DNA of 39,026 bases from Neisseria wadsworthii 9715 (GTDB lineage: Bacteria > Pseudomonadota > Gammaproteobacteria > Burkholderiales > Neisseriaceae). Under the pieces are notes generated by a model. That model was not told the origin of the DNA and did not search any database. It worked only from the letters and a program-made list of their open reading frames with translations. Made by a program: the position numbers and the translations under genes. The stretch's first letter is position 1. Every line of letters starts with the position of its first letter. Positions 1-14,630 of the stretch are shown piece after piece. Location of the stretch: positions 1,483,618 through 1,522,643 of the forward strand of contig NZ_JH165159.1 of assembly GCF_000227765.1 (NCBI RefSeq). The letters are read 5' to 3'.

Positions 1-210
1 AAAGATAAAAAATTTAATAATGAAAGTATTATTGAGATGTTAAACTCAGAAACAGAATATCTTACAGTACTTAAATCATGTTGTGATGTTATAGATGAAG
101 AATTAAAAAAACTACCTGAAAAAGAAAAACGAGAAGCATATAGAGTGTCAAAATTTACAGACTCTATTAGAGAAAACATTATTAATCAATTTAACAGTCA
201 GCAAGCGTAG
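1..210 (+). CDS. C-terminal fragment of an unknown protein (starts outside the window)
   Basis: The frame is open from base 1 to a TAG at 208-210 and gives the last 69 residues of a protein whose start lies upstream. The fragment is charged (rich in Lys and Glu), probably helical, and has no motif I recognise. Codon use is strongly AT-biased (AAA, GAA, ATT, TTA), unlike the housekeeping genes to the right, which suggests recent transfer. The last few codons lie inside the left copy of the duplicated intergenic repeat (201-419), so the repeat may have supplied the present stop codon. Function unknown. Confidence 0.55.
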   Translation, partial: KDKKFNNESIIEMLNSETEYLTVLKSCCDVIDEELKKLPEKEKREAYRVSKFTDSIRENIINQFNSQQA

Positions 211-419
211 CCTGCATAAAACCCTGCGTAGGTGTGTGCGGTACACACGCACGCGTTGTTCGGGCTTCTGTTCCAATGCCGTCTGAAACTTTCTTTTCAG
301 ACGGCATTGTTTTGTGCATAAATAATGCGGCGTGATTTTAAAATCTTTGTAGCCGATATGCGCTGTTCCCTTCAAAACCGCGTGCGTGACTGCGCCACAC
401 ATCCTACCGATGGTTTAAC
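201..419. repeat. Duplicated intergenic repeat, left copy
   Basis: About 220 bp recurs at 558-780 with high identity. Both copies hold, in order: a GTAGCCTG start, a GTGTGTG..GTAC..CACGCACGC block, GTTCGGGCTTCT, an inverted pair of ATGCCGTCTGAA (here 76 bp in, at 276-307), a GGCGTGATTTTAAAATCTTTG block, and TTCAAAACCGCGTGCGTG. No convincing gene is encoded on either strand. Confidence 0.75.
276..307. terminator. Inverted pair of ATGCCGTCTGAA uptake sequences (hairpin)
   Basis: ATGCCGTCTGAA at 276-287 and its complement at 296-307 form a 12-bp stem with an 8-base loop. This is the classic meningococcal/gonococcal uptake-sequence dialect, different from the dialect right of base 2683. It lies 66 bases behind the partial gene and could act as its terminator. 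Confidence 0.75.
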
Positions 420-443
420 GTTTGCTGTTTCAAACCTAAATCC

Positions 444-535
444 GTAGGTCGGATTCTCGAATCCGACTTATTCCGCTGATATATCTCGGCATCACAGCAT
501 ATCCTTATTTTGTCGGATACAAGTATCCGACCTAC
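444..535. repeat. Small interspersed element with GTAGGTCGGAT inverted ends
   Basis: A 24-base arm at 444-467 starting GTAGGTCGGATTC is matched in inverted orientation by 512-535 ending ATCCGACCTAC. Each arm is itself palindromic (GTCGGATT..AATCCGAC and GTCGGATA..TATCCGAC). The 44 bp between the arms encode nothing evident. It resembles a miniature inverted-repeat element and separates the two copies of the larger duplicated repeat. Confidence 0.5.
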
Positions 536-557
536 CAAGCTGTTTGAATTTTCAAAA

Positions 558-780
558 GCAAGCCGTAGCCTGTACAAAAGCTAAATCCTATGCGTAGGGT
601 GTGTGGAGTACGCACGCATTGTTCGGGCTTCTTCTCCAATGCCGTCTGAAACTCTCTTTTCAGACGGCATTGTTTTGAACAAAAATAATGTGGCGTGATT
701 TTAAAATCTTTGTAGCCGATATGCGCTGTTCCATTCAAAACCGCGTGCGTGGCTGCGCCACACTCTACCGATAGTTCAAT
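558..780. repeat. Duplicated intergenic repeat, right copy
   Basis: Second copy of the 201-419 sequence, differing by scattered substitutions and short indels. It contains its own inverted ATGCCGTCTGAA pair. The copies are direct repeats about 355 bp apart, so recombination between them could delete the element at 444-535. Confidence 0.75.
639..670. terminator. Inverted pair of ATGCCGTCTGAA uptake sequences (hairpin)
   Basis: ATGCCGTCTGAA at 639-650 and its complement at 659-670 form a 12-bp stem. It is the counterpart of the hairpin at 276-307 in the duplicated repeat. No gene ends close by, so it is more likely a passenger of the repeat than an active terminator. Confidence 0.65.
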
Positions 781-823
781 GTTACCTGCTTAAAAGCAAA
801 CGATCGTTAGTGCTTTAATTTTC

Positions 824-893
824 ATTAGACACCTTTATACAAAGATTGTTTAATTATACATATTATGTATAATTCTGTATAACAGTGTCTAAT
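824..893. promoter_or_regulatory. Nested palindromes upstream of the ATPase gene (possible operator)
   Basis: An outer inverted repeat pairs ATTAGACAC..TTATACA (824-841) with TGTATAA..GTGTCTAAT (876-893), 16 of 18 positions matching. Between the arms lies a perfect 10-bp palindrome, AATTATACAT (852-861) and ATGTATAATT (865-874). The box TTATACA thus occurs four times, twice in each orientation. The outer arm ends 16 bases before the ATG at 910. The AT-rich centre also offers -10-like sequences, so a bound repressor could cover the promoter. The binding protein is unknown. Confidence 0.5.
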
Positions 894-909
894 TCGAGAT
901 TATTCAGCC

Positions 910-1986
910 ATGAAAGACCCTTTGTTTTTCCACCGCAGAGAATATGCCCGCAAGCTGATCAACAGCCTCAAAGACGGCATTACCCACGCTTTTACCTTGT
1001 TTGCACCGCGCCGCATGGGCAAAACGCAGTTTCTATTGCAAGACGTATTGCCGTTGGCGGAAGAAAACGGCTTGAATGTGTTTTATTTCTCATTCATGGA
1101 CAGCGCAAACCCTACCGTTGATTTTCAGACGGCCTTATATCAATTTGCCCAAAATATTCAAACAGGAGGCAAGGCGAAAACTTTTTTAAGCAGCATCAAT
1201 AAAATTGAAATCATGAGCGTAGGTTTGGAGCGTGAAATAAACAAGGTCGAGATTCCCCGCCTATCCGATCTGATCACGCTCATTGCCGCAGACAGCCGCC
1301 CCAGCCTTTTATTGCTGGACGAAATTCAAGAGCTGGCGCGCCTGCCTGATACAGACGGCCTGATCAGGTCATTCAGAACCGGGCTTGATGTGAATCAAAA
1401 CAAAATCAAAGCCATTTTCACAGGCAGCAGCACCAACGGCCTACGAGCCATGTTCAACGACAATAAAGCACCGTTTTTCCATTTCGCTCACGCCTTGGAT
1501 TTTCCTTTGCTGGGAAAAGATTTCACGGACTTTTTGGCAGACGTTTACCACGACAGAACGGGAAACAGCCTAGATAAAACAAAGCTATACAGCCTATTCG
1601 AACGCCTGCATCACACCCCGATGTATATGCGCGCCATCATTCAAGACATGATATTAAGCCCGTCTGTAAGCCTGGAAACGGCAGCGGCAAGCAGAATTGA
1701 AGAGTTGGGAGCGAGCCATGAAGAAGTCGGCCTATGGCAGCAAATGAAGCCGCTGGAACGGGCCATCATCAAAGACATCGCTACCAACCCCGATGCCAGC
1801 CCGTACAGCAACGAAAGCCGTAAACAATACGCTACGCTGCTCGGAGTGGAATCCATCAGCAGCAGCAGTACGCAAGGTGCAATCAGGCGTATGGAAAGAC
1901 ACGATTGGATAAGCCGGGACACAAGCGGCAAATTGATGATCAACAACCCTATATTTAAAATTTGGATTATCGAGAATATCAAATAA
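910..1986 (+). CDS. AAA/STAND-like P-loop ATPase ('archaeal ATPase' type)
   Basis: The 358-residue protein carries a variant Walker A, APRRMGKT, at residues 32-39, a Walker B LLLLDE at 133-138 and a sensor-like FTGSS at 170-174. A C-terminal part (about 265-358) looks like a winged helix. This layout fits the P-loop ATPases called 'ATPase domain predominantly from Archaea' (COG1672-like, MNS/STAND-related). Cellular roles of these proteins are mostly unknown; some belong to mobile or defence loci. No obvious nuclease or effector domain is fused. The gene stands alone between a nested palindrome and gene debris. It contains one AGGCCGTCTGAA-type uptake site (1124-1135, reverse) and another overlaps its stop codon (1986-1997), neither in the dialect of the rest of the window. 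Transfer from another Neisseria is likely. Confidence 0.8.
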   Translation: MKDPLFFHRREYARKLINSLKDGITHAFTLFAPRRMGKTQFLLQDVLPLAEENGLNVFYFSFMDSANPTVDFQTALYQFAQNIQTGGKAKTFLSSINKIEIMSVGLEREINKVEIPRLSDLITLIAADSRPSLLLLDEIQELARLPDTDGLIRSFRTGLDVNQNKIKAIFTGSSTNGLRAMFNDNKAPFFHFAHALDFPLLGKDFTDFLADVYHDRTGNSLDKTKLYSLFERLHHTPMYMRAIIQDMILSPSVSLETAAASRIEELGASHEEVGLWQQMKPLERAIIKDIATNPDASPYSNESRKQYATLLGVESISSSSTQGAIRRMERHDWISRDTSGKLMINNPIFKIWIIENIK

Positions 1987-2018
1987 GGCCGTCTGAATTA
2001 ACTGCGAGGGAGAAGCAA

Positions 2019-2239
2019 ATGGAGAATTGTCTTCCGGAAAATACAAAAACCGGCTTTGTATCGGCGATTAGAGATAGACAGGTGGGTCGGTCGATATTTT
2101 AGGAAATATGGTTGTGAATGCGCTGGCGATGCACAACGAATATGTGATTTATGAAATCGACAGCAGGAATATCCAGAGCAGAATCAAGCTTTTTATCGGC
2201 GGACATACGGATAAATCTGAAAAAAATCATACGGGATAG
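2019..2239 (+). pseudogene. Broken small gene of unknown function
   Basis: A good Shine-Dalgarno (GAGGGAGAAG) precedes an ATG at 2019, but the frame stops at 2100-2102 after 27 residues. Another frame then stays open to the TAG at 2237-2239 and encodes NMVVNALAMHNEYVIYEID and a following basic stretch. It reads like one protein of about 70 residues broken by a frameshift near 2080-2100. The NM..ALAM stretch resembles one in the next broken gene (about 2308-2342), so the two may be relatives. I do not recognise the family. It follows the ATPase gene by 32 bp and might once have been co-transcribed with it. Confidence 0.4.
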
Positions 2240-2262
2240 ATTCAATAAGGCGAGGTGCGATT

Positions 2263-2489
2263 ATGTTCTTGCCAAAGCCATTCTCGCGTTCGATTGATTT
2301 TGAAACCAACATGCAGCGTATCGCCCATGCGTTGGCGATGTGTTTGAATAATGATGATGAAGACAATATCAATTTGTTCCCCCCTTGATTGCTGCGGTTC
2401 ACAACGAGCAAAACCTGATTTTTAAAAACAGACTGCTTTATTATCTGCTGCCGAATGTTATTTTTGTTGGCCTTATGCGTTTTGTTTAA
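2263..2489 (+). pseudogene. Small gene interrupted at a C6 tract
   Basis: The ATG at 2263 is preceded by AAGGCGAGG at a suitable distance. The frame gives 41 residues (MFLPKPFSRSIDFETNMQR and on) and stops at 2386-2388, just after six Cs at 2379-2384. One extra C would join it to the following open frame, which ends at 2487-2489, giving a protein of 75 residues. This is either a decayed gene or a phase-variable gene captured in the OFF state; poly-C tracts are a common switch in Neisseria, though they are usually longer than six. Family and function unknown. Confidence 0.4.
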
Positions 2490-2682
2490 AGTGGCTTCTC
2501 GGGAAGTTTTATCCCGAGCATTTTAACGGAATCGGAATCTGCTATTCTTACTTCTGCATCTTCCAAATAAATATTGCTAATAAATAGGTTATCTGAAATA
2601 TCTTATTCGGGAGATTCTTATTCTGTTTTGATAGGAATGGTATGATTTTATATATATATATCGTTTCGACTTGTTCATGCAA
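2490..2682. other. AT-rich stretch without an intact gene
   Basis: Only one possible remnant is seen. On the minus strand, 2602 to 2486 is open for 38 codons, including NLFISNIYLEDAEVRIADSD and ending EKPL, but it has no start codon. It could be the tail of a decayed gene. The rest is low complexity, including a TATATATATATA run near 2650. Confidence 0.35.
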
Positions 2683-2715
2683 GGCCTGTCTGAAAAAACA
2701 AATTTCAGACAGGCC
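2683..2715. terminator. Inverted pair of GGCCTGTCTGAA uptake sequences (hairpin)
   Basis: GGCCTGTCTGAA at 2683-2694 and its complement at 2704-2715 form a perfect stem. This is the first uptake sequence of the resident dialect when reading from the left, and so marks the right limit of the foreign-dialect region. Confidence 0.7.
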
Positions 2716-2730
2716 TATTCCGTATCAGCT

Positions 2731-2842
2731 TATAGTAAATAAACTTATTTTTTATCATATTTCCGTCATGCTCGGGATTGACTTGAGCATCCCCAGCCTT
2801 ACTGAAACTCGAGATACCTCAGGTCAAGCACGAGTATGACAA
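2731..2842. repeat. Diverged copy of a MITE-like repeat
   Basis: It begins TATAGTAAATAAACTTA (2731-2747), close to the terminal repeat TATAGTGAATCAACTTAA of the copies at 9217 and 34159. Inside is a GTCATGCTCGGG..GAGTATGAC core (about 2767-2836), also shared with those copies. The right terminal repeat is not recognisable, so this copy is truncated or decayed. Confidence 0.45.
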
Positions 2843-2870
2843 ACGCTTGGTATATATGAGAAACAAATAA

Positions 2871-2908
2871 AAAACCGCAGGATTATGTAATCATAATCCT
2901 GCGGTTTT
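2871..2908 (-). terminator. Rho-independent terminator of the potGHI operon
   Basis: A perfect 17-bp stem (2871-2887 with 2892-2908) closes on a TAAT loop, flanked by A and T runs. It lies 22 bp behind the potI stop codon. Unlike most terminators in this window, it is not built from uptake sequences. Confidence 0.85.
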
Positions 2909-2929
2909 GTTTGTATGGATGCAAGCGGT

Positions 2930-3823
2930 TTAATGATAAATGGCTTGTTCTACGGCGAGCTTTTCCTGACGTTCGGCTTCTGCGGTTTCCCGCTCACGTT
3001 TGGTAGCTTGGCGCATCATGTACCAATTGATGACAATCACCAATGTGCCGACGATGGCAATCATGATGGTAGCCAATACGTTCATCTGCGGATCCAAACC
3101 GCGTTTGATTTTAGAGAAAATCACTTGCGGTAGTGTGGATGAGCCGGGGCCGGAAAGGAAAGATGTGATGACCAAGTCGTCCAAAGAAAGTGTAATGCCG
3201 AGCAGGAAGCCGGATACGATTGCGGGGGCAATCAGGGGCAGGGTAATTACGAAGAAAATCTTCAAGGGGCGGGCACCTAAATCCATCGCGGCTTCTTCCA
3301 GCGATTGATCAAGCTCCATCAAACGAGAGCGGATAACCACGGTGATGTATGCCATACACAAGGTGGCGTGACCGAGGAAAATAGTGAAGAATCCGCGGTC
3401 GAGCCATTCGGCAGGGTTGCCTGTGATGCTTTGTATCATGCCTTGCACTTGAATAATCAGCAAAAGCAATGATAAGCCGGTAATCACATCAGGCATCACC
3501 ATAGGAGCCGACACCATGCCTGCAAACAAGGTGCTGCCGCGAAAGCGCTTGATGCGCGCCAACGCGTAGCCTGCCAAAGTGCCGAGAATGACGGCCACGA
3601 ATGAAGAAACCACCGCAATACGTAAAGATAACCACGCGGCTTCCAAAATCTCGCTGTTGTTGAGCAGGCGAGCATACCATTTGGTCGAGAACCCGCCCCA
3701 CACGGTTACGAGGCGGGAATCGTTGAATGAATAAATCACCAATATGATCAAAGGGATATAGAGGAAAGCCATGCCGATAAACAGCATTATCTTGAGGAAC
3801 CAAGACATTTTCTGATTAGCCAT
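2930..3823 (-). CDS. potI: Putrescine/spermidine ABC transporter, inner-membrane permease PotI
   Basis: This 297-residue protein is one of two permease subunits of a polyamine importer. It shows about six membrane segments, starting at residues 10-32, and the cytoplasmic EAA loop (EEAAMDLGARPLKIFF, about 175-190) that docks on the ATPase. Length agrees with E. coli PotI (281) plus a longer charged C-terminal tail. Its start overlaps the end of potH by 8 bp, so the genes are translationally coupled. The PotC-type permease is the nearest alternative name; the PotGHI assignment rests on the gene set and lengths. No periplasmic binding protein (PotF/PotD) lies in the window. Confidence 0.88.
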   Translation of the reverse strand: MANQKMSWFLKIMLFIGMAFLYIPLIILVIYSFNDSRLVTVWGGFSTKWYARLLNNSEILEAAWLSLRIAVVSSFVAVILGTLAGYALARIKRFRGSTLFAGMVSAPMVMPDVITGLSLLLLIIQVQGMIQSITGNPAEWLDRGFFTIFLGHATLCMAYITVVIRSRLMELDQSLEEAAMDLGARPLKIFFVITLPLIAPAIVSGFLLGITLSLDDLVITSFLSGPGSSTLPQVIFSKIKRGLDPQMNVLATIMIAIVGTLVIVINWYMMRQATKRERETAEAERQEKLAVEQAIYH

Positions 3824-4793
3824 GTTTGCCTCCTTCTTCTAATTCGCGGTTTTCATAATGCTGGAACAGGGCAATGGGCACGACCAGCAGCAAAACCATA
3901 ATCACGGCCAGAGCAGCAGCAAGCGGCCAGTTATTGGCATCGAAGAAGGTCATCCAGAGGGTTCTACCGATCATGAGATTATCGGAGCTGCCAACCAAAT
4001 CGGGAATCACGAATTCGCCCACGCAGGGAATAAATACCAACATGGAGCCCGCGATAATACCGGTTTTGGATAAAGGCAGGGTGATGGTAAAAAATGATTT
4101 AATCGGGCCTGCGCCTAAATCGGAAGCGGCTTCCAACAGGCGGCCGTCGAATTTTACCAACTGGGTATAAAGCGGCAGAATCATAAACGGCAGGTAGGCA
4201 TAAACCATCACGAGATTGAGTGAGAAGGTGTTGTAAAACATTTGCAGAGGCTCATCGATAATGCCGTATTTCATCAGCAGATTATTGATGATGCCGTTTT
4301 GGCTCAATAGCCCCATCCATGCATATACGCGCAATAGGAAAGAAGTCCAAAAAGGCAGCATGATGGCCAGCAACAGGGTGTTGCGGTAAGCGGGTTTTGC
4401 ACGGGCTATGCCATAAGCCATCGGATAGCCTAAAAGCAGGCAGATAAGGGTGGTGGTAGCCGCAGTTTTTATCGACAGCCAATAGCTGCGCAGATACATA
4501 TTATTGCCTGTGGCATCGCTCAGGCCGAACATCTGTTTAAGTGTGTCGGTGAAGTTGGCAAAAATTTCCTGATAGTTGTAATACACGAGATGCAGGGTTT
4601 GTTTGCCTGTTTCTTCATCGACTATAAATAGATCACTGTATGGTGGAATTTTCAGCTCTTGCTCGGCAAAGCTGATTTTCAGCACGATAAAAAACGGAAT
4701 CAGGAAAAGCACCAGCAGCCAGATATAGGGTATACCGATAACAAGGCCGCGTCCGGGGCGCAGGCGGCGTTTGATGTTGACAGACATGGGCAT
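3816..4793 (-). CDS. potH: Putrescine/spermidine ABC transporter, inner-membrane permease PotH
   Basis: The 325-residue membrane protein is the second permease of the polyamine importer. It has a basic N-terminus, a first membrane helix at about 18-40, a periplasmic loop with the YSDLF and QEIFANF stretches usual in PotH/PotB, and an EAA loop (LEAASDLGAGPIKSFF, about 220-235). It lies 4 bp behind potG and overlaps potI, fitting one transcription unit potG-potH-potI. E. coli PotH has 317 residues. Confidence 0.88.
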   Translation of the reverse strand: MPMSVNIKRRLRPGRGLVIGIPYIWLLVLFLIPFFIVLKISFAEQELKIPPYSDLFIVDEETGKQTLHLVYYNYQEIFANFTDTLKQMFGLSDATGNNMYLRSYWLSIKTAATTTLICLLLGYPMAYGIARAKPAYRNTLLLAIMLPFWTSFLLRVYAWMGLLSQNGIINNLLMKYGIIDEPLQMFYNTFSLNLVMVYAYLPFMILPLYTQLVKFDGRLLEAASDLGAGPIKSFFTITLPLSKTGIIAGSMLVFIPCVGEFVIPDLVGSSDNLMIGRTLWMTFFDANNWPLAAALAVIMVLLLVVPIALFQHYENRELEEGGKHG

Positions 4794-4797
4794 TTCC

Positions 4798-5916
4798 TCA
4801 GCGGGTTAACGGGGTAGGCTGGTTTTCAGGCCAATCCAGATAAACTTCTTCATCCCAGGTAGGCGGCGTGATATTGCGCACATACCAATAAGGCGCAGGA
4901 ACCTGGCTTTTGATAATGCGGCCGTTTTCCATTTGCACATGGTAGATGGCGAAGCTGCCGAGGTAGGCAATGTCTTTTACGATGCCTTTCGCCCAGTTGT
5001 GGCTATCGCGATGGGCTGGTTTTTCTTTATGCAAATCAATATCTTCTGGTCGGATACTGATCCAGATGGTTTGCCCTTCTTTACCTTCGAATTTTTGATC
5101 GGTGTAGATTTTGCTTGGCAATTCGGGGCAGTTAATTAAGGCATGGTGCTCGTTTATGCTGTCGACGGTGCCTTCAAAAATATTGGTTTCGCCAATAAAT
5201 TCAGCGGTAAAGCGGCTGTTGGGGAAGTCATAAATATTACTGGGCGTGTCGACTTGTTTGAGCTGGCCGTCGGACATAATGGCTACGCGGGTAGCCATGG
5301 TCATGGCTTCTTCTTGGTCGTGCGTAACCATAATGCAGGTTACGCCCACAGTTTCGAGCGTATCCACAAGCTCAAGTTGGGTTTGCTGGCGTAATTTTTT
5401 ATCGAGGGCACCCAATGGTTCGTCAAGAAGGAGGATTTTCGGGCGTTTGGCAAGACTGCGGGCCAATGCTACGCGCTGCTGTTGGCCGCCTGAAAGTTGG
5501 TGTGGCTTGCGTTTGGCAAATTTGGTCATCTGGACTAGGCGCAGCATTTGCTCCACGCGCTCGGCGATTTCGCCTTTGGGCATTTTGTCTTGCTTGAGAC
5601 CGAAAGCGATGTTTTGCTCCACAGTCATATGAGGGAAAAGTGCATAGCTTTGGAACATCATGTTGATAGGGCGGTCGTAAGGAGCGAGTTTGGTAATATC
5701 CTGACCGTCAAGAATGATGCTGCCTTCGGAAGGGGTTTCCATGCCGGCAAGCATGCGAAGAAGGGTTGATTTGCCGGAACCCGAACTGCCCAGCAAAGCA
5801 AAGATTTCATGTTTGTCGATATTAAGGTCGATGTGATCGACAGCGTAATTGTCACCAAATTTCTTAACCAAGCCTTTGATTTGTAGATAGGGTTGATTGG
5901 CAGACGCAGTGGTCAT
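4798..5916 (-). CDS. potG: Putrescine/spermidine ABC transporter, ATP-binding protein PotG
   Basis: ATPase of the polyamine importer. From the chosen ATG (5914-5916) it has 372 residues: Walker [10 protein letters not shown] at 43-51, signature LSGGQ at 141-145, Walker B ILLLDE at 161-166, an H-loop in VTHDQEEA, and a C-terminal TOBE-like regulatory domain (about 290-372). The frame is open 30 codons further upstream to 6006. The inner start is preferred because GGAG lies 8 bases before it and the protein then matches PotG length (377 in E. coli). It is the first gene of the operon; the next ATG is 4 bp away. Confidence 0.9.
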
Positions 5917-6229
5917 GGCAATACTCCGGTAAAACGAGTACCGCAAAGCGGAATTTCGCAGGGGTGAAAATAAAGCTGTTTGATTGCTCTCCGTGGGAAC
6001 CTTCAAGCGTTCGGGCAGCGCGAGAATGATTTTTTCAAAATCTGTGATTATATTTTGTTGTGGTAGGGCGGGGCAATCAAAAATTGATTTTTTCAGTGAA
6101 ATAATCGGTTTAATCTTGATTGGGTGTTTTTTCAGATGGGTATTGTTGTATTTATGTTTGGTGAAATTTATAGTGGTATAAGCACAAGGTTGTTTATAGA
6201 TTAATGAAATAGCTGCGGTATAAAATCAA
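5917..6229. other. potG upstream region with a possible promoter
   Basis: No gene is seen in these 313 bp. On the minus strand TTGCCC (6076-6071) and TATAAT (6052-6047) are spaced 18 bp apart and could form the potGHI promoter, which would give a leader of roughly 125 bases. I found no riboswitch or clear operator. Confidence 0.35.
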
Positions 6230-6260
6230 TGCCTGTCTGAAAATATTTTTCAGACAGGCA
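6230..6260 (-). terminator. Uptake-sequence hairpin behind rfbD
   Basis: TGCCTGTCTGAA (6230-6241) and its complement (6249-6260) form a 12-bp stem with a 7-base loop, 20 bp behind the rfbD stop codon. Confidence 0.75.
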
Positions 6261-6279
6261 TTGTGTTTTGCCGGCTTTA

Positions 6280-7155
6280 TTAAGATTGCTCTTCAGCGAG
6301 CAACACTGGCACGATTTTGTTTAACGCAGCTTGCCAATCGGACACGTTCAGGCCGAGCGACTTGATTTTGTCGCAGTTCATCACGCTGTAAGCCGGGCGG
6401 GAAGCCGGTGTGGGATATTCGCTGGTAGCGATGCCGTTGGTGGTGGGTACTCGGAAATCGCGGCCGCTTTGCGAGGCTGTTTGGAAAGTGGCACGTGCAA
6501 AATCGCACCAGCTTACGGATTTGTCGCCGCAATAATGGTAGAGGCCGATGGGGAAGTTTTGCAGCTTCAGGGCGCCGATAATGGCTTGTGCCAGATCGCC
6601 TGCGTAGGTGGGGTTGCCGATTTGGTCGTCTACCACGCCTAAGGTGTCGCGGTCTTTGGCGAGACGCAGCATGGTTTTGACGAAGTTGTTGCCGTATTCG
6701 GAAAATACCCATGCGGTGCGGATAACCATGCTGTTGGGATTGGCGGATAGGGCAAGCAATTCACCGGCAAGCTTGGATTTGCCGTAGACGCCGACAGGAT
6801 CCGGTGCATCGGTTTCCGTGTAAGGTGTTTTGGCATTACCGGGGAAAACGTAATCGGTGGATACATGTACGAATTTTGCGCCCACAGCTTGCGCGGCGGC
6901 GGCCAGATTGTGGGTGCCGGTGGCGTTGATGGCGAAGGCTTTGTCGCGTTCGCTTTCGGCTTTATCCACAGCGGTGTAAGCAGCTGCGTTGACTACGGCA
7001 TCGGGTTGGAAATTTTTTACCATGTTCATCACTCCGGCAGCGTCGGTGATGTCGAGGGTTTTGGAATCGGTAGCGATTAATTCCCAGTCTTCCGGCAGGC
7101 GGTCTTTAAAGCAGCGGCCAAGCTGGCCTTTGGCTCCGGTGAGCAGAATTCTCAT
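6280..7155 (-). CDS. rfbD: dTDP-4-dehydrorhamnose reductase
   Basis: The enzyme makes the last step of dTDP-L-rhamnose synthesis, reducing dTDP-4-dehydrorhamnose with NAD(P)H in the cytoplasm. The 291 residues show the nucleotide-binding TGAKGQLG at 6-13, the STDYVF motif at 99-104 and the catalytic Tyr124/Lys128 (YGKSK), all typical of RmlD. The other genes of the pathway (rfbA, rfbB, rfbC) are not adjacent, which is unusual: this copy is monocistronic with its own hairpin terminator. Rhamnose would feed a surface polysaccharide. An oligosaccharide-polymerase-like gene lies 2.3 kb away but is not linked in an operon. Confidence 0.92.
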   Translation of the reverse strand: MRILLTGAKGQLGRCFKDRLPEDWELIATDSKTLDITDAAGVMNMVKNFQPDAVVNAAAYTAVDKAESERDKAFAINATGTHNLAAAAQAVGAKFVHVSTDYVFPGNAKTPYTETDAPDPVGVYGKSKLAGELLALSANPNSMVIRTAWVFSEYGNNFVKTMLRLAKDRDTLGVVDDQIGNPTYAGDLAQAIIGALKLQNFPIGLYHYCGDKSVSWCDFARATFQTASQSGRDFRVPTTNGIATSEYPTPASRPAYSVMNCDKIKSLGLNVSDWQAALNKIVPVLLAEEQS

Positions 7156-7280
7156 TTGTTGTATCCTTCTTTTGTGTAATCGTTAGTAATTTGGGCGACT
7201 ATTGTATAGCCTATTGGAAAAATAATACAGTAACAAGTTTGGTTTTGTGCCATATGCAGCGATAAAATGTTTGCGGGAAA

Positions 7281-7292
7281 TGCCTGTCTGAA
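7281..7292 (+). repeat. Single uptake sequence touching the ynfA ribosome binding site
   Basis: TGCCTGTCTGAA runs directly into AAGGTGG, the apparent ribosome binding site of the following gene (ATG at 7302). It is unpaired, so it forms no terminator hairpin. Confidence 0.8.
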
Positions 7293-7301
7293 AAGGTGGA
7301 T

Positions 7302-7631
7302 ATGAATAGTGTGGAAATGTTGCTGCTGTTTGGCATAACGGCGGTGATGGAAATTTTAGGCTGCTGGCTGCCTTATCTGTGGTTGCGGCAAAATGGTTCT
7401 CCATGGCTGTTGTTGCCAGCCGCAATTTGCCTTGCAGTGTTTTCTTGGTTACTCACGCTGCATCCTGAAGCGAGCGGGCGAGTTTATGCTGCTTACGGCG
7501 GGGTGTACGTGAGTACGGCTTTAGTGTGGCTTTGGTTGGTTGACGGCGTACGCCCGCAGCTCACGGATTGGTTGGGTGTGATTTTATGCTTGAGTGGTAT
7601 GTTGGTAATTATGTTGGGTTCGGGCAGATAG
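7302..7631 (+). CDS. YnfA/UPF0060-type small inner-membrane protein
   Basis: The 109-residue, four-helix membrane protein has the E..GCW(L)PY stretch near the end of helix 1, the [10 protein letters not shown] motif in helix 3 and GxxLCLxGMxxI near the end, all characteristic of the YnfA (UPF0060) family. Members have been proposed to be small multidrug resistance-like exporters; the substrate here is unknown. ATG at 7302 is chosen because AAGGTGG precedes it by a few bases; a GTG two codons upstream is in frame. The gene is divergent from rfbD across 146 bp. Confidence 0.85.
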
Positions 7632-7753
7632 GGATTAGGTTGAAATTGCTTAATTTTTAGGCAAATTTTAAATAGTGATATGTTTCAAATGTTAAAGCGG
7701 TTTATCCACATATTGTGCACATGGCTGCCAACATTTACTGTATATAGCCTGTA

Positions 7754-7765
7754 TGCCTGTCTGAA
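7754..7765 (+). repeat. Single uptake sequence
   Basis: One perfect TGCCTGTCTGAA in the 244-bp gap between the ynfA-type gene and the DUF445 gene. A short open frame across it (7680-7865) shows no protein-like features. Confidence 0.85.
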
Positions 7766-7875
7766 AAAGCTGCCGAAGGTTTATTTGAAAGTATATCAAG
7801 GGGTTGAACAAATCTTTTTTGCGACCATGTATAAAATAAGAAACATTGATTGGGATAAATATTAAGGATACCGCC

Positions 7876-9192
7876 ATGCAAACTCTATCTGCCGAAGTGC
7901 GCACTGCCAATGCTCGGGCGCGTTTGCGTAAAAACCGTATGTTTGCAACCGGCTTGCTGGTTTTGGCATGTGTGTTGTTTATTGTTGCTACGATTTTTGT
8001 GGGCCGTTACCCGGCTTTGGGCTATCTGAAAGCCTTTGCAGAAGCGGCAATGGTCGGTGCGCTGGCGGATTGGTTTGCGGTTACCGCGCTGTTCCGCCAT
8101 CCGCTTGGTTTACCGATTCCGCATACGGCGATTCTGCCAAAAAACCAGCACCGTATTGCAGAAGAGCTGGGGCGTTTTATCGAACATAATTTTTTACAGG
8201 ATAAACCGATTGCGCTTAGGGTGTATCAGGCCGAGCCGAGTGAAAAACTGCTTTATTGGTTGAGCAAAAACCGCAAACAATGGTTGCCCAATCTGGCTGC
8301 GCAGATTCCAACTTTGCTGAAAACAGCCAAGCCCGAGCAGGTGGCCCGTTTCGGAAGCCAAATGCTGATGCAGCAATACAGTGGTGACAAAATCGGCAAA
8401 GCGCTGGCGGATATATTGATTTCCGTCAAGCGGCAGGGGTTGGACGATGTGTTGCTTTGCGCTTTGATGAAGCAGATGCGCCGTTGGTTAAAACATCCTG
8501 AAACACGTATGATGCTGGAGCAGAGTTTGAACGAATGGGCGGTAAAAATCGAACGTGATGCGCCGAATACTTGGGATAAAATCAAAGCTTCGCTTAAAGG
8601 TACGCTGCTGGAAAAAGTGGACGGCTGGATTTCGGAAAAAGCTTTGGATTGGGCCGACGGCTATTTGGCTGCAGCATTGGAGAATCCGCAGCACAAGCTG
8701 CGCCGGTCTGCTTCGGAGCAGATTGACCGTATCGCACACGCATTAAGGCATTCTCGCTTATGGCACCGGCGGTTGGAGGCAACCAAACGTGAATTGGCGG
8801 CTTCGTTGGCTTTGCAGGAGGCGGTAACGAGCTTGTGGCAGGGTTTGCAGCAATGGTCGCATGAAGATGTGAAAAAAGCGGATTCGCTGGTTCGGGCGCA
8901 GATGGAAAAATTGCTGGAGCATATGCTGCGGCAGGCGGCGGAATATCCTCAGTTTATGCGGCGGATGGATGTGCGCGTTTCGCTGATAGTGCGTGATTTG
9001 GTAAACAACTATAAAGACCGTGTTGCGGCTTTCGTAACTGAAAAAGTGAAGGGCTGGGACAGCGCGCAGATGGTGGAAAAATTGGAATTGAGCGTGGGAA
9101 AGGATTTGCAGTTTATCCGCATCAACGGTACGCTGGTCGGCGGTTTGGTGGGGCTGGTAATCTATTGCGTGTCGGAGTGGGTGTTGAAGTAG
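7876..9192 (+). CDS. DUF445 family membrane protein (YjiN-like)
   Basis: The 438 residues start with a membrane segment at about 25-47, followed by the family's conserved EAAMVGALADWFAVTALFRHPLG stretch (about 57-79), a long soluble helical region, and a C-terminal membrane helix (about 415-435). Length matches E. coli YjiN (426). The biochemical role of DUF445 proteins is not established. ATG at 7876 is preceded by AAGGAT; ten more codons are open upstream but lack a site. Transcribed alone, ending near a MITE-like repeat and an uptake-sequence hairpin. Confidence 0.85.
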   Translation: MQTLSAEVRTANARARLRKNRMFATGLLVLACVLFIVATIFVGRYPALGYLKAFAEAAMVGALADWFAVTALFRHPLGLPIPHTAILPKNQHRIAEELGRFIEHNFLQDKPIALRVYQAEPSEKLLYWLSKNRKQWLPNLAAQIPTLLKTAKPEQVARFGSQMLMQQYSGDKIGKALADILISVKRQGLDDVLLCALMKQMRRWLKHPETRMMLEQSLNEWAVKIERDAPNTWDKIKASLKGTLLEKVDGWISEKALDWADGYLAAALENPQHKLRRSASEQIDRIAHALRHSRLWHRRLEATKRELAASLALQEAVTSLWQGLQQWSHEDVKKADSLVRAQMEKLLEHMLRQAAEYPQFMRRMDVRVSLIVRDLVNNYKDRVAAFVTEKVKGWDSAQMVEKLELSVGKDLQFIRINGTLVGGLVGLVIYCVSEWVLK

Positions 9193-9216
9193 TTTTTTGG
9201 AATTATTCAGATGGTT

Positions 9217-9349
9217 TATGGTGAACCAACTTAAAAAACGTATGCTTGTTATATTCTGTAGTTAAGTCACTTACATAGTAACAATAACGTCATACTCGGG
9301 TTTGGCTCGAGTATGACGTGTATATTTTTTCTTAAATTGATTGACTATA
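9217..9349. repeat. MITE-like repeat with terminal inverted repeats
   Basis: The left end TATGGTGAACCAACTTAA (9217-9234) is matched in reverse by TTAAATTGATTGACTATA (9332-9349). The core at 9289-9317 is a hairpin: GTCATACTCG pairs perfectly with CGAGTATGAC. The same ends and a related core occur at 34159-34289 (131 bp) and, decayed, at 2731-2842. There is no coding capacity, so any mobility would need a transposase elsewhere. A further end-like sequence, TATAGTTAAACTAAAA, follows at 9375-9390. Confidence 0.65.
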
Positions 9350-9411
9350 GTTTTAAGTCTGAGCATGATGGCGCTATAGTTAAACTAAAATTATCAATAT
9401 CTCTCGTAAAA

Positions 9412-9440
9412 TGCCTGTCTGAAAACTTTTCAGACAGGCA
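9412..9440. terminator. Uptake-sequence hairpin between convergent genes
   Basis: TGCCTGTCTGAA (9412-9423) and its complement (9429-9440), 5-base loop. It can terminate both the DUF445 gene and the minus-strand polymerase gene ending at 9457. Confidence 0.8.
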
Positions 9441-9456
9441 TTATGCTGTCGTATGG

Positions 9457-10644
9457 TTAAGTCCTTTTTCTACTAATCAGCAGCAAGCAGCCTAAAAACA
9501 TTTGAATCCAAGTTGAAATCAGAGTCATATATTGGTCTTGCAGCATTTGGGTTAGCAAGGGGTAAAGCGAGATGGCGTAAATAATCATGCAAAAATCGTT
9601 GGTTTTACGTGCTTGTTTATACAGTATCCAGTGTATCGGCAAAAAAATCAGTGGGATAAAAAAGCCGAACACATAGAAATCCCGCACATACACTTCATAA
9701 ACTGTATAGAGATTGGTTGGTGCGGGTGTGAATTGATAGCCTTTTACAATCGGCCCGGGCGGATCGGTCAAACCGAATGCAGAGAGTATGCTCAAAATAA
9801 AACGCAAGGAATAATCGCCGAAAGCCAGTGTTTTTAATTCATCCGTAATCATGGATAGGGCTACGAAAGGTGCAATGAAATAACTATGTGCGCTTTCAAT
9901 GAAGCTGGCAGCATTCTCGCTCAAAGAAGCATCGGCAGATGCGCCTTTAGAAGTTAGAGCAGCCACTAAAAAGAACATACCCAACAAAACAGAGCTCAAA
10001 ACAGCCAGAGTTTTCAGTCTAATTTTACCCATCACGGCCAAGGGCGTAACCGTGAAGATAAAGATCATCAGGAAGAATGTGCGTCCGGTGGTGAGATAAG
10101 CATAAATCAGGGCGAGCAACACGGCTAACATTGCCTGCCATTTGTTCAGCTCTTTTTTTGCGGCGTAATACACGCCTACTGAAGCGCTCAAAAATGCCAG
10201 CGTATATAAATAGCCCAGTTTACCCATGTCTTTGCCTTCATTATTGAATACATAACGCAAGCGGGTGTAGCCCGAGCTGGTAAAAATACTTTCCCCTGCA
10301 TAATCGACAACCATTTGATAAAACGTTGGCAATGCAGCAATTAATGCCAGCTGTATAATCGTAAATATTTTTTTATTCAATTGGTATTGCGGGGCATTCG
10401 GCATAAAGCCCGGCTTGAATGGCCGTGTACAGACCATCATGAATAAAGCAATCAGCTGTACACATATTTGAATGAATAAATATTCTTCTGAAATCGGTCG
10501 ATAAGTGTGTTGAAAAAAAGCATAAGCCACAAAAATAGCCGACCAAACGCCGAAGTAGAGGGTAAACGGATTAAATGGCCCCAGTCTGAAATATTTAGAT
10601 AGGAAAAATCCGCTTAAAGAAATGAGGGTTAAAATAACCAACAT
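9457..10644 (-). CDS. Oligosaccharide repeat-unit polymerase-like membrane protein (Wzy type)
   Basis: The 395 residues form ten or more membrane helices. LTTGRTFF (about 183-190) and the PAPTNLYTVYEVYVRDFYVFGF stretch (about 308-329, large periplasmic loop) are typical of the O-antigen/oligosaccharide repeat-unit polymerase family (TIGR04370-like). Such enzymes join lipid-linked repeat units in the periplasm. Sequence similarity in this class is weak, so the substrate cannot be named. No flippase or glycosyltransferase genes lie beside it. The 290-bp region upstream is very AT-rich. Its solitary position and AT content suggest acquisition separately from a polysaccharide locus. Confidence 0.7.
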   Translation of the reverse strand: MLVILTLISLSGFFLSKYFRLGPFNPFTLYFGVWSAIFVAYAFFQHTYRPISEEYLFIQICVQLIALFMMVCTRPFKPGFMPNAPQYQLNKKIFTIIQLALIAALPTFYQMVVDYAGESIFTSSGYTRLRYVFNNEGKDMGKLGYLYTLAFLSASVGVYYAAKKELNKWQAMLAVLLALIYAYLTTGRTFFLMIFIFTVTPLAVMGKIRLKTLAVLSSVLLGMFFLVAALTSKGASADASLSENAASFIESAHSYFIAPFVALSMITDELKTLAFGDYSLRFILSILSAFGLTDPPGPIVKGYQFTPAPTNLYTVYEVYVRDFYVFGFFIPLIFLPIHWILYKQARKTNDFCMIIYAISLYPLLTQMLQDQYMTLISTWIQMFLGCLLLISRKRT

Positions 10645-10851
10645 AGAATATCAAATGTGTTTGCCAGGATGAAAGTAAGTAAAAAATGCTTATTCATTAT
10701 AATGCATTTGTTATTAATTTGTAATTTAAATTACGGATTTAAATGAAATTATTTTATATAAATTTACTTTATAAGATATAGTTAGCATAATAATATTTAT
10801 TCTGGTTTTATATACGGTGATATATTTCGTTGCCACATGCTTTAAAAACAA

Positions 10852-10879
10852 TGCCTGTCTGAATCTTTCAGACAGGCAT
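10852..10879 (-). terminator. Uptake-sequence hairpin behind glnD
   Basis: TGCCTGTCTGAA (10852-10863) and its complement (10868-10879) with a 4-base loop, about 60 bp behind the glnD stop codon. The region 10645-10851 to its left is AT-rich, non-coding and probably holds the promoter of the polymerase-like gene. Confidence 0.75.
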
Positions 10880-10937
10880 TGTTTCAAAATTACACTGAAA
10901 AATCAGCCGAATGTTAAAGCATAATCATTTTAAATAT

Positions 10938-13496
10938 TCAAATGCTTAGTTGCTCAAGAAGCCGCTGTTTTAATAGTAGCTGCTGTTTCGGGTTGGCAAG
11001 TTGCGGGCTGTATAGCAGAAAACTGTCTTCCACACGTTCGTCTAAAGTATTGATTTTGGCGTAGCGCAGGCTAATGCCGAGTTCGGCAAACACTTCTGTG
11101 ATGTCGGCCAGCAGAAAAGGGCGGTTGACTGTAATAATCTCCAGCGTAAACCAGCCGGGATAGTCTTCTTCTTCGGAGAGAAACAGGTTGGGCGCAATCG
11201 GTTGATGTCGGGCGCGGCGGCTTTTTATTCCACTTGATAAATTATTGACGCGGAATTTGCCTTGTATAAAGCAGTTTAGTTCTTTTTCCAGCGATGTGCG
11301 GATGCGCGGGTAGTCGTGCGGGCTGTAATGATTGGGAAACTGAACAACGAATGTATCCAGAATATAGTTGTGTTCGGTTACGAAAGCGCGCGCTGCCACA
11401 ATATCCAAGCCGGACCGGCTGAAAATGCGGCACAAGCGGGTAAACAGGCGGTCGGCGTTGGGCATGTATACCATTACTTGCAAAGTAGCGGCATCTTGCA
11501 GGTTGCGTATAGCAATTTGTGATTCTTCCAAATGTTCAATCAGAATCGGCAGATGCCAGAGGATTTCCTGCTCTTCATGCCGCACGAAATAAGCAGGACC
11601 GAGCGCTTGCCACAAGCGGCGCTGCTGCTTAGCATCATAACCGGCTTGAGTGAGCGCTTCGGTGGCACTGTTTTGGCGGATACTTGTAATGGCTTTGCGG
11701 TTTTTTTCCACACCGGCCAGGCGTTGTGCTGTCGAGTGAAACAAATTTTCCAGCAAACCGGCTTTCCATGAATTCCAGATTTTCGGGTTGGTGCCGCGGA
11801 TATCAACTACGGTAAGCAGATAAAGGGCGGTCAACCGCTCTTGTGTTTTAACACGGTCGCAGAAACGGGTAATCACATCAATATCATAAATATCTTCTTT
11901 TTGGGCTACGGTGGACATTAACAAGTGGTCTTCAACCAGCCAAGTGAGCAGGTCACTTTCTTCTTGGTTGAGGAAATGGTCTCGGGCAAATTGTGCCGCA
12001 TCTTTTGTGCCTTCCACGGCATGGTCGCCACCACGGCCTTTGGCAATGTCATGAAACATGGCGGCCAAATAAAGCACGTGTTTTTTCTCAAACGAATACA
12101 TCAATCCCGAAGCAAAAGGTAATTCATGGGCATGGGCGTCTATGGCCAGGCGGCGCATATTGCGCAGCACCATCAGGATGTGGTCGTCAACAGGGTAAAT
12201 GTGGAATAAGTCGTGTTGCAGCAGGCCGGTGATTTTTTCCCAGGCAGGCAGGTATTGGCCGAGCACACCGTAAAGATTGAGAAAACGCATGGTGCGGGTC
12301 AGGCCGTTACCGGTTTTGAAAAAGCCGATGAAGCGCTCGCGGTTAACGGGATTTAGGTAAAAATCTTTATTGATATTGCGGGTTGCTGCCCACCATTGGC
12401 GCAAAGTTTGGGGCGCGATGGTTTTCAAATCGTTGCGATTCTGGATGATTTCGATGATTTTGAAAATATGGGTAGGGTCGTTGCGGAACAGGTTTTTATC
12501 TTTTACCGCGATTTGGTTGTCGACTTGGTAATATTCGTCGTCGATATGGTGTATATGGCGGGGCAATACTGAATAAACACGGCCGCGGAGCATGGGGATA
12601 ATGATGCCGTTAAGTTGTTTAACGGTTTTTGTGGCGCGGTAGAGCCGGTGCATCAGTTTTTCACTTTTTATGCGGTTATTGTCATTTTGAAAACCCATGT
12701 CTGTGGCGATTTTGTTTTGCAAATCAAAAATCAACCTGTCTTCTTCACGGCCCGCGGCCAAATGCAGCTCGATTCGGATGCGTGCCAGCTGCTTGTGGCT
12801 GTTGGAAAGCAAACCGGCTTCCATACGCGTGAGTACACGGTTATGCACCAATGAATGTGCTGATGTTGATAAACCCTGTGCTTTGGCCAGCCACATCATG
12901 GTGTGGATATCGCGCAGGCCGCCGGGGCAGGTTTTGATGTTTGGTTCAAGTAGTGCACCGGAACCTTTTTGCTTATCGTGGCGCTGCTGCATTTCTACCA
13001 ATTTACCTTCGATAAACAGAGCGGCATTGCGTTGCAGGTTGAGTTTTTGAAGCATGGCATTCGCGGTGGCTTGGTCGCCGCAAATAAAGCGTGCTTCGAG
13101 GAACGCTGTTTCGCCGCTAAGGTCGTCTTCAATACTGCGGCATAATTGATCTATGCTGCCAACTTTGGCTGCGGGCGTAAGCTGCATATCCCATAGAGTT
13201 TGAATCAACGCAGTGGCGGCCTCTTGCTGCGCTTCGGTCAGCGCTGTGTTTGAAACCACGGCCAAATCCAAATCGGAATAGGGATACATTTCCCGCCTGC
13301 CGAAACCGCCTGTTGCCAGCAAGCATATGCCGCTATCGTCAAATAATTCCTGCCACAATGAGGAAAGCATGTTGTCTAAAGCTTGGGTGTATTGCTCGAA
13401 AAAAACATTAGGCTGCCGCTTGACCAAATAGGCAGCGATGGCTTGTTCTTTTTTTAGGCTTAATTCTTTTGCAAGGGTTGAGGCAGAGTTAGGCAT
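10938..13496 (-). CDS. glnD: [Protein-PII] uridylyltransferase / uridylyl-removing enzyme
   Basis: Bifunctional sensor of glutamine that adds UMP to, and removes it from, PII proteins, and so controls nitrogen assimilation. The 852 residues hold a nucleotidyltransferase domain (GGFGRRE at 63-69, with Asp75 and Asp77 of the DLD pair), an HD domain for UMP removal (FHD at 481-483), and two C-terminal ACT domains (about 678-755 and 785-852) that bind glutamine. E. coli GlnD has 890 residues. No PII gene is adjacent. A single uptake sequence (13517-13528) lies just upstream of the start. Confidence 0.95.
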   Translation of the reverse strand: MPNSASTLAKELSLKKEQAIAAYLVKRQPNVFFEQYTQALDNMLSSLWQELFDDSGICLLATGGFGRREMYPYSDLDLAVVSNTALTEAQQEAATALIQTLWDMQLTPAAKVGSIDQLCRSIEDDLSGETAFLEARFICGDQATANAMLQKLNLQRNAALFIEGKLVEMQQRHDKQKGSGALLEPNIKTCPGGLRDIHTMMWLAKAQGLSTSAHSLVHNRVLTRMEAGLLSNSHKQLARIRIELHLAAGREEDRLIFDLQNKIATDMGFQNDNNRIKSEKLMHRLYRATKTVKQLNGIIIPMLRGRVYSVLPRHIHHIDDEYYQVDNQIAVKDKNLFRNDPTHIFKIIEIIQNRNDLKTIAPQTLRQWWAATRNINKDFYLNPVNRERFIGFFKTGNGLTRTMRFLNLYGVLGQYLPAWEKITGLLQHDLFHIYPVDDHILMVLRNMRRLAIDAHAHELPFASGLMYSFEKKHVLYLAAMFHDIAKGRGGDHAVEGTKDAAQFARDHFLNQEESDLLTWLVEDHLLMSTVAQKEDIYDIDVITRFCDRVKTQERLTALYLLTVVDIRGTNPKIWNSWKAGLLENLFHSTAQRLAGVEKNRKAITSIRQNSATEALTQAGYDAKQQRRLWQALGPAYFVRHEEQEILWHLPILIEHLEESQIAIRNLQDAATLQVMVYMPNADRLFTRLCRIFSRSGLDIVAARAFVTEHNYILDTFVVQFPNHYSPHDYPRIRTSLEKELNCFIQGKFRVNNLSSGIKSRRARHQPIAPNLFLSEEEDYPGWFTLEIITVNRPFLLADITEVFAELGISLRYAKINTLDERVEDSFLLYSPQLANPKQQLLLKQRLLEQLSI

Positions 13497-13516
13497 GGCG
13501 GTTTCACTTAGTTGGT

Positions 13517-13528
13517 TTCAGACAGGCA
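13517..13528 (-). repeat. Single uptake sequence upstream of glnD
   Basis: Perfect TTCAGACAGGCA 20 bp upstream of the glnD start codon, unpaired within hairpin distance. Confidence 0.85.
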
Positions 13529-13577
13529 TTTTGATTCCGAATTATATAGCGCTATTGTTTCATCATGCATAATACGA

Positions 13578-13606
13578 TGCCTGTCTGAAAAATATTCAGA
13601 CAGGCA
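13578..13606 (-). terminator. Uptake-sequence hairpin behind metF
   Basis: TGCCTGTCTGAA (13578-13589) and its complement (13595-13606), 5-base loop, 22 bp behind the metF stop codon. Confidence 0.8.
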
Positions 13607-13628
13607 TCGTGTAGATAAGCATAGAATT

Positions 13629-14462
13629 TTAATAACCTAAACGCTGGCAAATGGTGGATACCAAACCTGCTTGGTTGAGTGTATAAAAATGCAGTCCCGG
13701 TGCGCCTTCGCGTAACAGGCGTTCACACATTTCGGTAACCACATCCAGAGCCAGCGATTTAATGGCAGCTGTATCGTCGGCATAAGATTGCAGCTTCAAG
13801 CGCAGCCAGCGGGGGATTTCCGCGCCGCAAGTATCGGAGAAGCGGGTCAGCTTGGAGAAGCTGGCAATCGGCATAATGCCGGGAATAATCGGAATATCTA
13901 CCCCACGGCCTTGTACGTCGTCGACAAAGCGGAAATAGGCATCGGTATTGTAAAAATATTGGGTAATGGCCGAATCGGCGCCGGCTTTGACTTTGCGTAC
14001 AAAATTATTCAAGTCGTCTTCCGCGCTGCGTGCTTGCGGGTGAAATTCGGGATAAGCCGCCACTTCAATATGGAAATGGTCGCCGAATTCGTTTTTAATC
14101 AATGAAACCAATTCATTGGCGTAAAACAAGCCGTCCATCCCCGCGCCCATGCCGGAAGGAATATCGCCGCGCAGTGCAACAATATGGCGTATGCCCAAGG
14201 CTTTATATTCGTTCAGCAAATCAACCACTTCTTGCGGCTGCATGCCGATACAGGGTAAATGTGGTGCAGCAGCAATACCTTCGCTTAAAATATCCTGAAT
14301 GGTTTGCATCGTGCCTTCTCTGGTGGAACCGCCTGCGCCGGAGGTGCAGCTGAAGAAATCCGGTGCGTATTGGCTGAGCTGCTTGCGTGTAATTACCTGT
14401 TTGGCACGGCCTTCGGGTGTGCGGGTAGGGAAGAATTCGAAACTGAGTTTGGGCAGCGACAT
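13629..14462 (-). CDS. metF: 5,10-methylenetetrahydrofolate reductase
   Basis: Flavoenzyme that reduces 5,10-methylene- to 5-methyltetrahydrofolate, the methyl donor for methionine synthesis. The 277-residue TIM-barrel protein has the N-terminal SFEFFP motif with the catalytic Glu, the VALRGDIP strand (about 94-101), which carries the folate-binding Asp, and the TQYFYN flavin/folate-site segment (about 166-171). Length is typical of bacterial MetF (296 in E. coli). GGAG lies 10 bases before the ATG. Transcribed alone. Confidence 0.95.
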   Translation of the reverse strand: MSLPKLSFEFFPTRTPEGRAKQVITRKQLSQYAPDFFSCTSGAGGSTREGTMQTIQDILSEGIAAAPHLPCIGMQPQEVVDLLNEYKALGIRHIVALRGDIPSGMGAGMDGLFYANELVSLIKNEFGDHFHIEVAAYPEFHPQARSAEDDLNNFVRKVKAGADSAITQYFYNTDAYFRFVDDVQGRGVDIPIIPGIMPIASFSKLTRFSDTCGAEIPRWLRLKLQSYADDTAAIKSLALDVVTEMCERLLREGAPGLHFYTLNQAGLVSTICQRLGY

Positions 14463-14630
14463 GCTTGTAGCTCCATAATATTTTTAGATGATGCTTAGGT
14501 TATGTGCTTGATTGTGCAAGTGCAAGCAATAAAGGCTATTTTTCTTGTGAAAAATATTCTTTTAGATATGAATTTAATTATTGCTCACATATTTTTCTTA
14601 AAAAATCATATGCTTGCTTAAATACAGTAA

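Follow-up and report, generated by a model that had tools for sequence, protein, structure and literature searches.

The window analysed here is a stretch of 39,026 nucleotides of Neisseria wadsworthii 9715 (G000:C1:1483618-1522643, in a genome of 2,467,075 bases), and the subject is a patch at its left end that carries DNA uptake sequences (DUS) of a dialect other than the host's. The leftmost piece of this patch is uvrA, followed by a gene resembling those of AbiU/AIPR abortive-infection proteins, a repeat block, an ATPase cassette and the remnant of a broken gene. The host is labelled G000 and its relatives are coded G001-G035. The names uvrA, pot, clpA, lolD and T6SS (type VI secretion system) were assigned by eye from translations, with no family search behind them.

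Uptake-sequence dialects in the window and the host genome

Three forms of DUS are relevant, namely the AT-DUS (ATGCCGTCTGAA), the AG-DUS (AGGCCGTCTGAA) and the wad-type DUS, whose 12-mer form is TGCCTGTCTGAA. AT and AG sites were counted together through CCGTCTGAA, and wad-type sites through CCTGTCTGAA. An exact 12-mer search of the window finds four AT-DUS, at 276 (plus strand), 296 (minus), 639 (plus) and 659 (minus), and two AG-DUS, at 1124 (minus) and 1986 (plus), which agrees with the original prediction of six such sites in the first 2 kb. These are the only CCGTCTGAA occurrences in the window (n = 6; mean of 0.18 in 60 first-order Markov resamples). It was also predicted that every one of more than 35 sites from 2683 rightward belongs to the other dialect, and indeed all 41 CCTGTCTGAA sites of the window (mean of 0.08 in the same number of such resamples) lie there, the leftmost at 2683 (plus) and 2704 (minus). 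Bases 1-2682 therefore contain no wad-type and six AT/AG sites, and the rest of the window 41 wad-type and no AT/AG sites. Under random order, the probability that all six of the 47 sites are the leftmost is 9e-8, a figure that is only a guide because sites come in pairs. The letters that precede CCTGTCTGAA in the window are ATG in 34 cases, AGG in six and ACG in one. Foreign-dialect islands are recognized by absence of the host DUS and over-representation of another dialect, and both are found in bases 1-2682.

The dialect of the host is wadDUS. Its genome is far from an even mixture, with 2421 CCTGTCTGAA and 403 CCGTCTGAA occurrences and, among 12-mers, 2100 of TGCCTGTCTGAA, 272 of AGGCCGTCTGAA and 26 of ATGCCGTCTGAA. 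Frye et al. (2013, PMC3630211) give 2426 wadDUS for this strain, against our 2421. Among 60 genomes searched (36 of the same genus, counting the host), bulk use of the wad dialect is confined to G000, G005 and G016 (2100, 2095 and 1920 copies of TGCCTGTCTGAA, respectively), and G022, G025 and G035 have 52-78 sites each. AG-DUS total 2886 in G017, 2549 in G018 and 2826 in G024, where wad sites number 31-37; the main AT-DUS users are G003, G004, G008 and G020. Seven host stretches that were not chosen for CCGTCTGAA contain 152 wad-type, 10 AG and no AT sites, and AG and wad sites intermingle in host stretches that were chosen for it.

Pieces and borders of the patch

The AT-rich AbiU/AIPR-like gene starts 4 bases after uvrA. 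Its readable N-terminal 329 amino acids match the PADLOC model AbiU (4.2e-79; profile positions 2-310 of 537 aligned) and Pfam AIPR (1.7e-16), while the remaining C-terminal part is unreadable or unmatched. Unreadable sequence separates the start of this gene from window base 1, and the window opens with an AT-rich end of an open reading frame (ORF) on the plus strand (1-210; 69 amino acids; GC content 0.26). This ORF end lies on the same strand as the AbiU-like gene and has a similar GC content (0.26 versus 0.28). Perhaps it is the tail of that gene, or of a second cargo gene.

The repeat block (180-794) contains both inverted AT-DUS pairs, one at 276-307 (276-287 plus, 296-307 minus) and one at 639-670 (639-650 plus, 659-670 minus). 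Its best matches, at 89-92% identity, are in G017 (89%, 180-794), G005 (89%, 206-762), G018 (92%, 181-651) and G024 (89%, 200-347). In the wad species G005 and the AG species G017, G018 and, in part, G024, the block lies behind uvrA and its cargo. G005 and G017 have both AT pairs, G018 has one pair and one further arm, and G024 has one pair; all sites inside these copies are AT or AG, and none is wad. Short repeats of window positions 442-535 also recur at many places in the host and its relatives.

The ATPase cassette occupies 814-1997 on the plus strand, and over exactly this span it is 85-86% identical to sequences of G017 and G024 that lie at loci other than the uvrA slot; a 69% match in G013 (835-1997) is likewise at another locus. 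Its gene (910-1986, plus strand) encodes a 358-amino-acid AAA ATPase (Pfam AAA_14, 8.5e-7; ATPase_2 below its cut-off) that matches none of the solved structures compared. Searching genome contigs for this ATPase returned 12 relatives, comprising two from Neisseriaceae, nine from Pasteurellaceae (by genus name) and one Lysobacteraceae record. Both AG-DUS of the cassette have counterparts at matching positions in G017, G024 and G013. One is within the gene (1124-1135, minus strand); the other (1986-1997, plus strand) overlies the stop codon, and the matches of these three genomes end at its last base. The cassette has no G005 match among the matches listed (cut near E 6e-6). Elsewhere in the host, a broken paralogue of the ATPase (66%) lies between wad-dialect DUS pairs (L075:4390-5448, G000:C1:2006390).

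The broken gene remnant (1998-2597, plus strand) is 83% identical to G017, in which its counterpart is intact (~298 amino acids); this G017 gene has no PADLOC or Pfam family. At the end of the remnant, AGGTTATCTGAA (2586-2597) is apparently a decayed AG-like DUS, and G017 has an AG pair behind the counterpart gene. The first wad-dialect inverted pair (2683-2715) is on the native side of the border. Beyond it, a pot-like transport operon (2930-6123, minus strand), which serves as a native control, is 89% identical to G005 and 76-78% to G016, G017 and G018. In G005, uvrA and the pot operon are ~74 kb apart.

The foreign tract has its start outside the window on the left side, either within uvrA or ahead of it. 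The nearest wad site on that side is at -3899 in window coordinates, immediately ahead of uvrA, and host uvrA contains one AG-DUS and one GTG-type CCGTCTGAA but no wad site. Thus, the patch does not start at base 1 but reaches further left than the stretch considered in the original prediction. The dialect switch does fall between 1997 and 2683, as had been proposed, but the decayed AG-like site narrows the right border to between ~2597 and 2683 and moves it away from 1997. Judged by its sequence matches, the patch is a mosaic with four or more pieces and is not visibly the result of a single transfer.

Conflict between uvrA and core genes

uvrA was found in 34 genomes of the genus including the host; only scraps were found in G011 and G021, and the ORF is broken in G015. 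Host uvrA is 96.4% identical to that of G017, 95.7% to G005, 94.2% to G018 and 93.6% to G024, and the other 27 of the 31 genomes compared reach at most 88.6%. By comparison, four core pieces from the window are 84-89% identical between the host and G005, 68-81% for G017, 69-82% for G018 and 68-80% for G024. Among themselves, G017, G018 and G024 share 73-83% in the core and 94-96% in uvrA. When 20 kb of the window was searched in eight relatives, the AG species mostly gave 67-82%, and G005 gave 81-86% with the exception of one 67% row.

A uvrA tree of 32 rows, which excludes G011 and G021 (not located), G015 (no intact ORF) and G026 (missed by the motif filter), places G000, G005, G017, G018 and G024 together with support of 100/99, and the host with G017 with 98/97. 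Two wad and three AG species are therefore intermixed within this clade. In nine-row tests, the uvrA alignment rejects a host-G005 grouping (approximately unbiased test, p 0.007), and the core alignment rejects both a host-G017 grouping (p 0.0008) and the five genomes as a clade (p 0.001). The uvrA and core trees conflict. We dropped the AG motifs inside uvrA as donor marks, because they recur elsewhere, and the case for uvrA consequently rests on identity and trees.

An accessory slot behind uvrA

Cargo mostly differs across the 34 uvrA loci. Among the loci of 31 relatives, 28 have an ORF of 130 or more amino acids that lies on the uvrA strand and starts at most 320 bases past the uvrA stop codon; the median GC content is 0.30. 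These 28 include a permease-like ORF in G023 with a GC content of 0.50; G013, G023 and G032 are without AT-rich cargo. Only six pairs of first-cargo proteins (n = 29) are alike at E 1e-5. Different whole-gene cassettes are found at one site, as in a minimal mobile element, although across species and not strains.

We scanned the cargo of 30 genomes (the host and 38 proteins of 29 others, leaving out G013, G015, G023 and G032) for defence genes. As a control, ten host housekeeping proteins were run, and five gave PADLOC matches, up to 2.8e-100 for UvrA with mad3 and 5.8e-38 for ClpA. Because housekeeping ATPases match ATPase models this strongly, only matches with a partner gene or to a non-ATPase family were counted. 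Such specific matches occur in 13 of the 30 genomes, several of them to families (HEC, PDC) that are candidate systems. AbiU is behind uvrA in G000, G004 and G022. Other slots contain HEC-01A and HEC-01B (G024), TIR-TM (G016), AriA and AriB (G010), a type II methylase with a restriction enzyme (G008), KwaA with part of KwaB (G019), HEC-06/GmrSD (G025), PDC-S33 (G028), SoFic (G029), a ThsB TIR protein with PDC-S60 (G030), and PDC-S47/Abi_alpha (G033). G005, G012, G020 and G031 have ATPase or helicase matches only, which were not counted. PADLOC matches are absent or weak in the slots of G001, G002, G003, G006, G007, G009, G014, G017, G018, G026, G027, G034 and G035, and among genomes that lack PADLOC support, Pfam alone recognizes NB-ARC/NACHT (G035), HATPase (G034) and NERD (G001), domains that also occur in defence proteins.

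The conserved left flank of the slot is uvrA, and no conserved right-hand flanking gene was seen in the loci compared. In 15 of 31 loci (for example, L066:5704-6234), a RAYT-like transposase ORF, in some cases only a partial one, follows the cargo no more than 3.5 kb from uvrA; the copy in G017 matches Pfam Y1_Tnp. Since such an ORF is found in only 15 of the loci, the right arm is variable, and only half of the minimal mobile element definition applies.

Other AG-marked DNA in the host

AG-marked tracts recur in the host, and the uvrA patch is not exceptional. In L020 (G000:C1:465001-485000), bases 1-15709 hold eight AG, one AT and no wad sites, and this tract is 96% identical to G005, 95% to G024 and 97%, over 12.7 kb, to G017. 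By eye, it looks like a T6SS cluster with large Rhs-like ORFs behind it. The mainly-AG parts of L023 (1-3484, 4587-8234 and 9053-14873) are 82-94% identical to G024, save for one 0.6-kb part at 79%, and G005 is about as close. The wad-rich part (14993-20000) is 76-80% identical to G024 and 93% to G005. Because G005, a wad species, equals the AG species in closeness over AG-marked parts, identity leaves the direction of exchange unsettled.

Among the sites listed, CCGTCTGAA is dense in patches mixed with wad sites at G000:C1 ~310-600 kb, which suggests many imports in this region. Hairpins that pair an AG with a wad arm account for 19 of 162 inverted pairs in host stretches, compared with 119 wad-wad pairs and 24 of AT/AG only, in a count from stretches partly chosen for AG sites. 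Examples are L023:7269 and L017:2305 (host stretches L011-L029), and two more are behind uvrA in G016 (L072:6494 and L072:6714). Mixed hairpins could reflect recombination borders that fall within a DUS pair, or ongoing conversion of dialect.

Origin of the patch

The accessory slot behind uvrA, of which the patch forms the right part, is probably an imported mosaic that passed from AG-DUS Neisseria to the wadDUS lineage through transformation followed by homologous recombination, with selection for its cargo. We read the slot as a defence slot similar to minimal mobile elements, whose contents crossed the dialect border by homologous recombination. Donor DNA from AG-DUS relatives of G017, G018 and G024 would enter the wadDUS lineage by transformation and be integrated by homologous recombination. 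On the left, the homology arm would be uvrA, whose allele is nearly shared; on the right, it would be the repeat block with its paired DUS, or sequence beyond it. Selection for new defence cargo probably makes rare cross-dialect uptake worthwhile, and the uvrA allele would be dragged along with the selected cargo. A further piece would be the ATPase cassette, marked by two AG-DUS and present elsewhere in AG species, which was inserted between the block and the broken gene. Dialects, borders, mosaic matches, the conflict of uvrA and core trees, and the diversity of cargo are observations; the transformation route, the AG-to-wad direction and selection on defence are what we infer.

The original prediction of a scar left by transfer from a different Neisseria holds insofar as transfer is concerned, but the patch is mosaic, begins outside the window and has counterparts elsewhere in the host. 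Best matches were expected in users of the foreign dialect, and the longest are mostly in the AG users G017, G018 and G024, but the wad user G005 has the block too. The segment is not collinear in G005, as predicted for a close relative, but the block is present there, and its AT pairs are the same. The AT-DUS users G003, G004, G008 and G020, considered as donors, gave only short repeat matches among the matches listed. Because AG-DUS species carry AT pairs behind uvrA, nothing indicates that the donor was an AT-DUS species.

Several observations weigh against this account. Both the block and high uvrA identity occur in G005, whose uvrA contains one wad site; part of the tract could therefore be long established in the wad lineage, or exchange could have gone in the opposite direction. 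No searched genome has the whole patch in one piece among the matches listed, and little of L023 is matched in G017. The CCGTCTGAA motifs inside uvrA recur at the same places in other species and are weak evidence of dialect. In the phylogenetic analyses, the tested groups were named after identities or the tree had been seen, the nine-row uvrA tree supports the five genomes with only 90/99, and the core set lacks one piece for G016 and another for G033, G010 and G004 and includes two rows of odd base composition. The 69 amino acids of 1-210 do not match the C-terminus of the G004 AbiU protein, and their continuity with the AbiU-like gene across the unreadable stretch is tentative. As for the slot, 17 of the 30 scanned genomes have no specific defence match, and because the count of 13 covers the uvrA slot alone, with no other slot as comparison, enrichment is a judgement. 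On its right flank, a few loci have a DUS block, and there is no single conserved gene.

The intermixing of two wad with three AG species in the uvrA clade, the presence of the block in both G005 and the host, and the wad site inside G005 uvrA would also be consistent with movement of DNA from a wad lineage to AG species, or via a third lineage, an explanation that differs from import only in direction. We consider it unlikely, in that even wad genomes with the block or the cassette have AT or AG sites there, and AG species hold the same sites. Quite unlikely is old shared inheritance, by which the block and its AT/AG pairs would be ancestral and have escaped conversion to the wad dialect. The same AT pairs are in the block behind uvrA of G005, G017, G018 and partly G024, and mixed AG/wad hairpins do occur (19 of 162 inverted pairs in host stretches), in keeping with such a history. 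However, the adjoining uvrA is far too similar for the age of the split (96%, whereas core pieces are at 68-81%), and the uvrA and core trees disagree; moreover, the ATPase cassette is not among the G005 matches listed and lies elsewhere in G017 and G024.

Delivery of the patch by an integrative element with its own integrase, whether an integrative and conjugative element (ICE), a P4-like island or a phage, seems improbable. ICEs are published sources of foreign-dialect islands in Neisseria (PMC7371117), and ORFs that by eye resemble element primases are ~4 kb from the ATPase cassette in G017 and G024. Between uvrA and the pot operon, where family searches covered the main ORFs and one stretch is unreadable, no integrase-, conjugation- or phage-like ORFs were seen by eye. 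In addition, different pieces have their matches at distinct loci within a single relative, and uvrA itself is exchanged.

Beyond the probable import of a mosaic slot into this host, the results suggest that defence-like genes are swapped between Neisseria species despite the DUS barrier. A broader proposal, to which we give somewhat less than even chances, is that the uvrA site is a genus-wide hub for exchange of phage defence, where frequent swaps homogenise the adjoining uvrA across dialects, the barrier is regularly breached, and paired DUS near the edge form the recombination border. The slot is a place to seek new defence genes in Neisseria and to test whether selection for defence drives recombination across dialects. 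In the AG-marked tracts examined, identity to AG species is mostly 82-97%, as against 68-82% for most wad-marked core pieces, a contrast that gives a view, from sequence only, of where and by how much the barrier leaks.

Comparison with known systems

Our literature search found no account of a defence hotspot at uvrA, and the slot appears undescribed in the papers searched, though the kind of system is known. Minimal mobile elements of Neisseria are reportedly the subject of Saunders and Snyder (2002) and Snyder et al. (2007). The main text of the papers examined on these elements does not mention uvrA, with the 2007 list of elements outside that search. By definition, two conserved genes flank the site of such an element (PMC3082526). 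The uvrA slot is similar in that whole-gene cassettes differ beside a conserved gene and homologous recombination is thought to build them in. Unlike those elements, it has no single conserved gene on the right, it crosses DUS dialects, and its cargo is often phage-defence-like. The N-terminus of the host cargo matches AbiU/AIPR abortive-infection proteins; its C-terminal part is unreadable or unmatched, and a function in defence is predicted.

Genomic islands have been recognized by foreign DUS dialects and read as horizontal acquisitions (Hughes-Games et al. 2020, PMC7371117), in a paper whose main text does not contain the word wadDUS. The patch resembles those islands in lacking the host DUS and carrying that of another dialect. 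It differs in that no ICE genes were seen, and in being a mosaic of a few kilobases beside a housekeeping gene in a wadDUS host. T6SS-B proteins are 98-100% similar among N. dumasiana, N. zoodegmatis, N. canis and N. wadsworthii, possibly through transfer (PMC10210955), which agrees with the AG-marked, T6SS-like L020; the parts of that paper considered here do not connect this sharing with DUS dialect. Even in the absence of DUS, transformation of N. meningitidis stays fairly efficient, though reduced, and depends on ComP (PMC3868556). DUS dialects have been presented as efficient barriers between Neisseria lineages (PMC3630211), whereas in N. wadsworthii 9715 this barrier has apparently been crossed at several loci.

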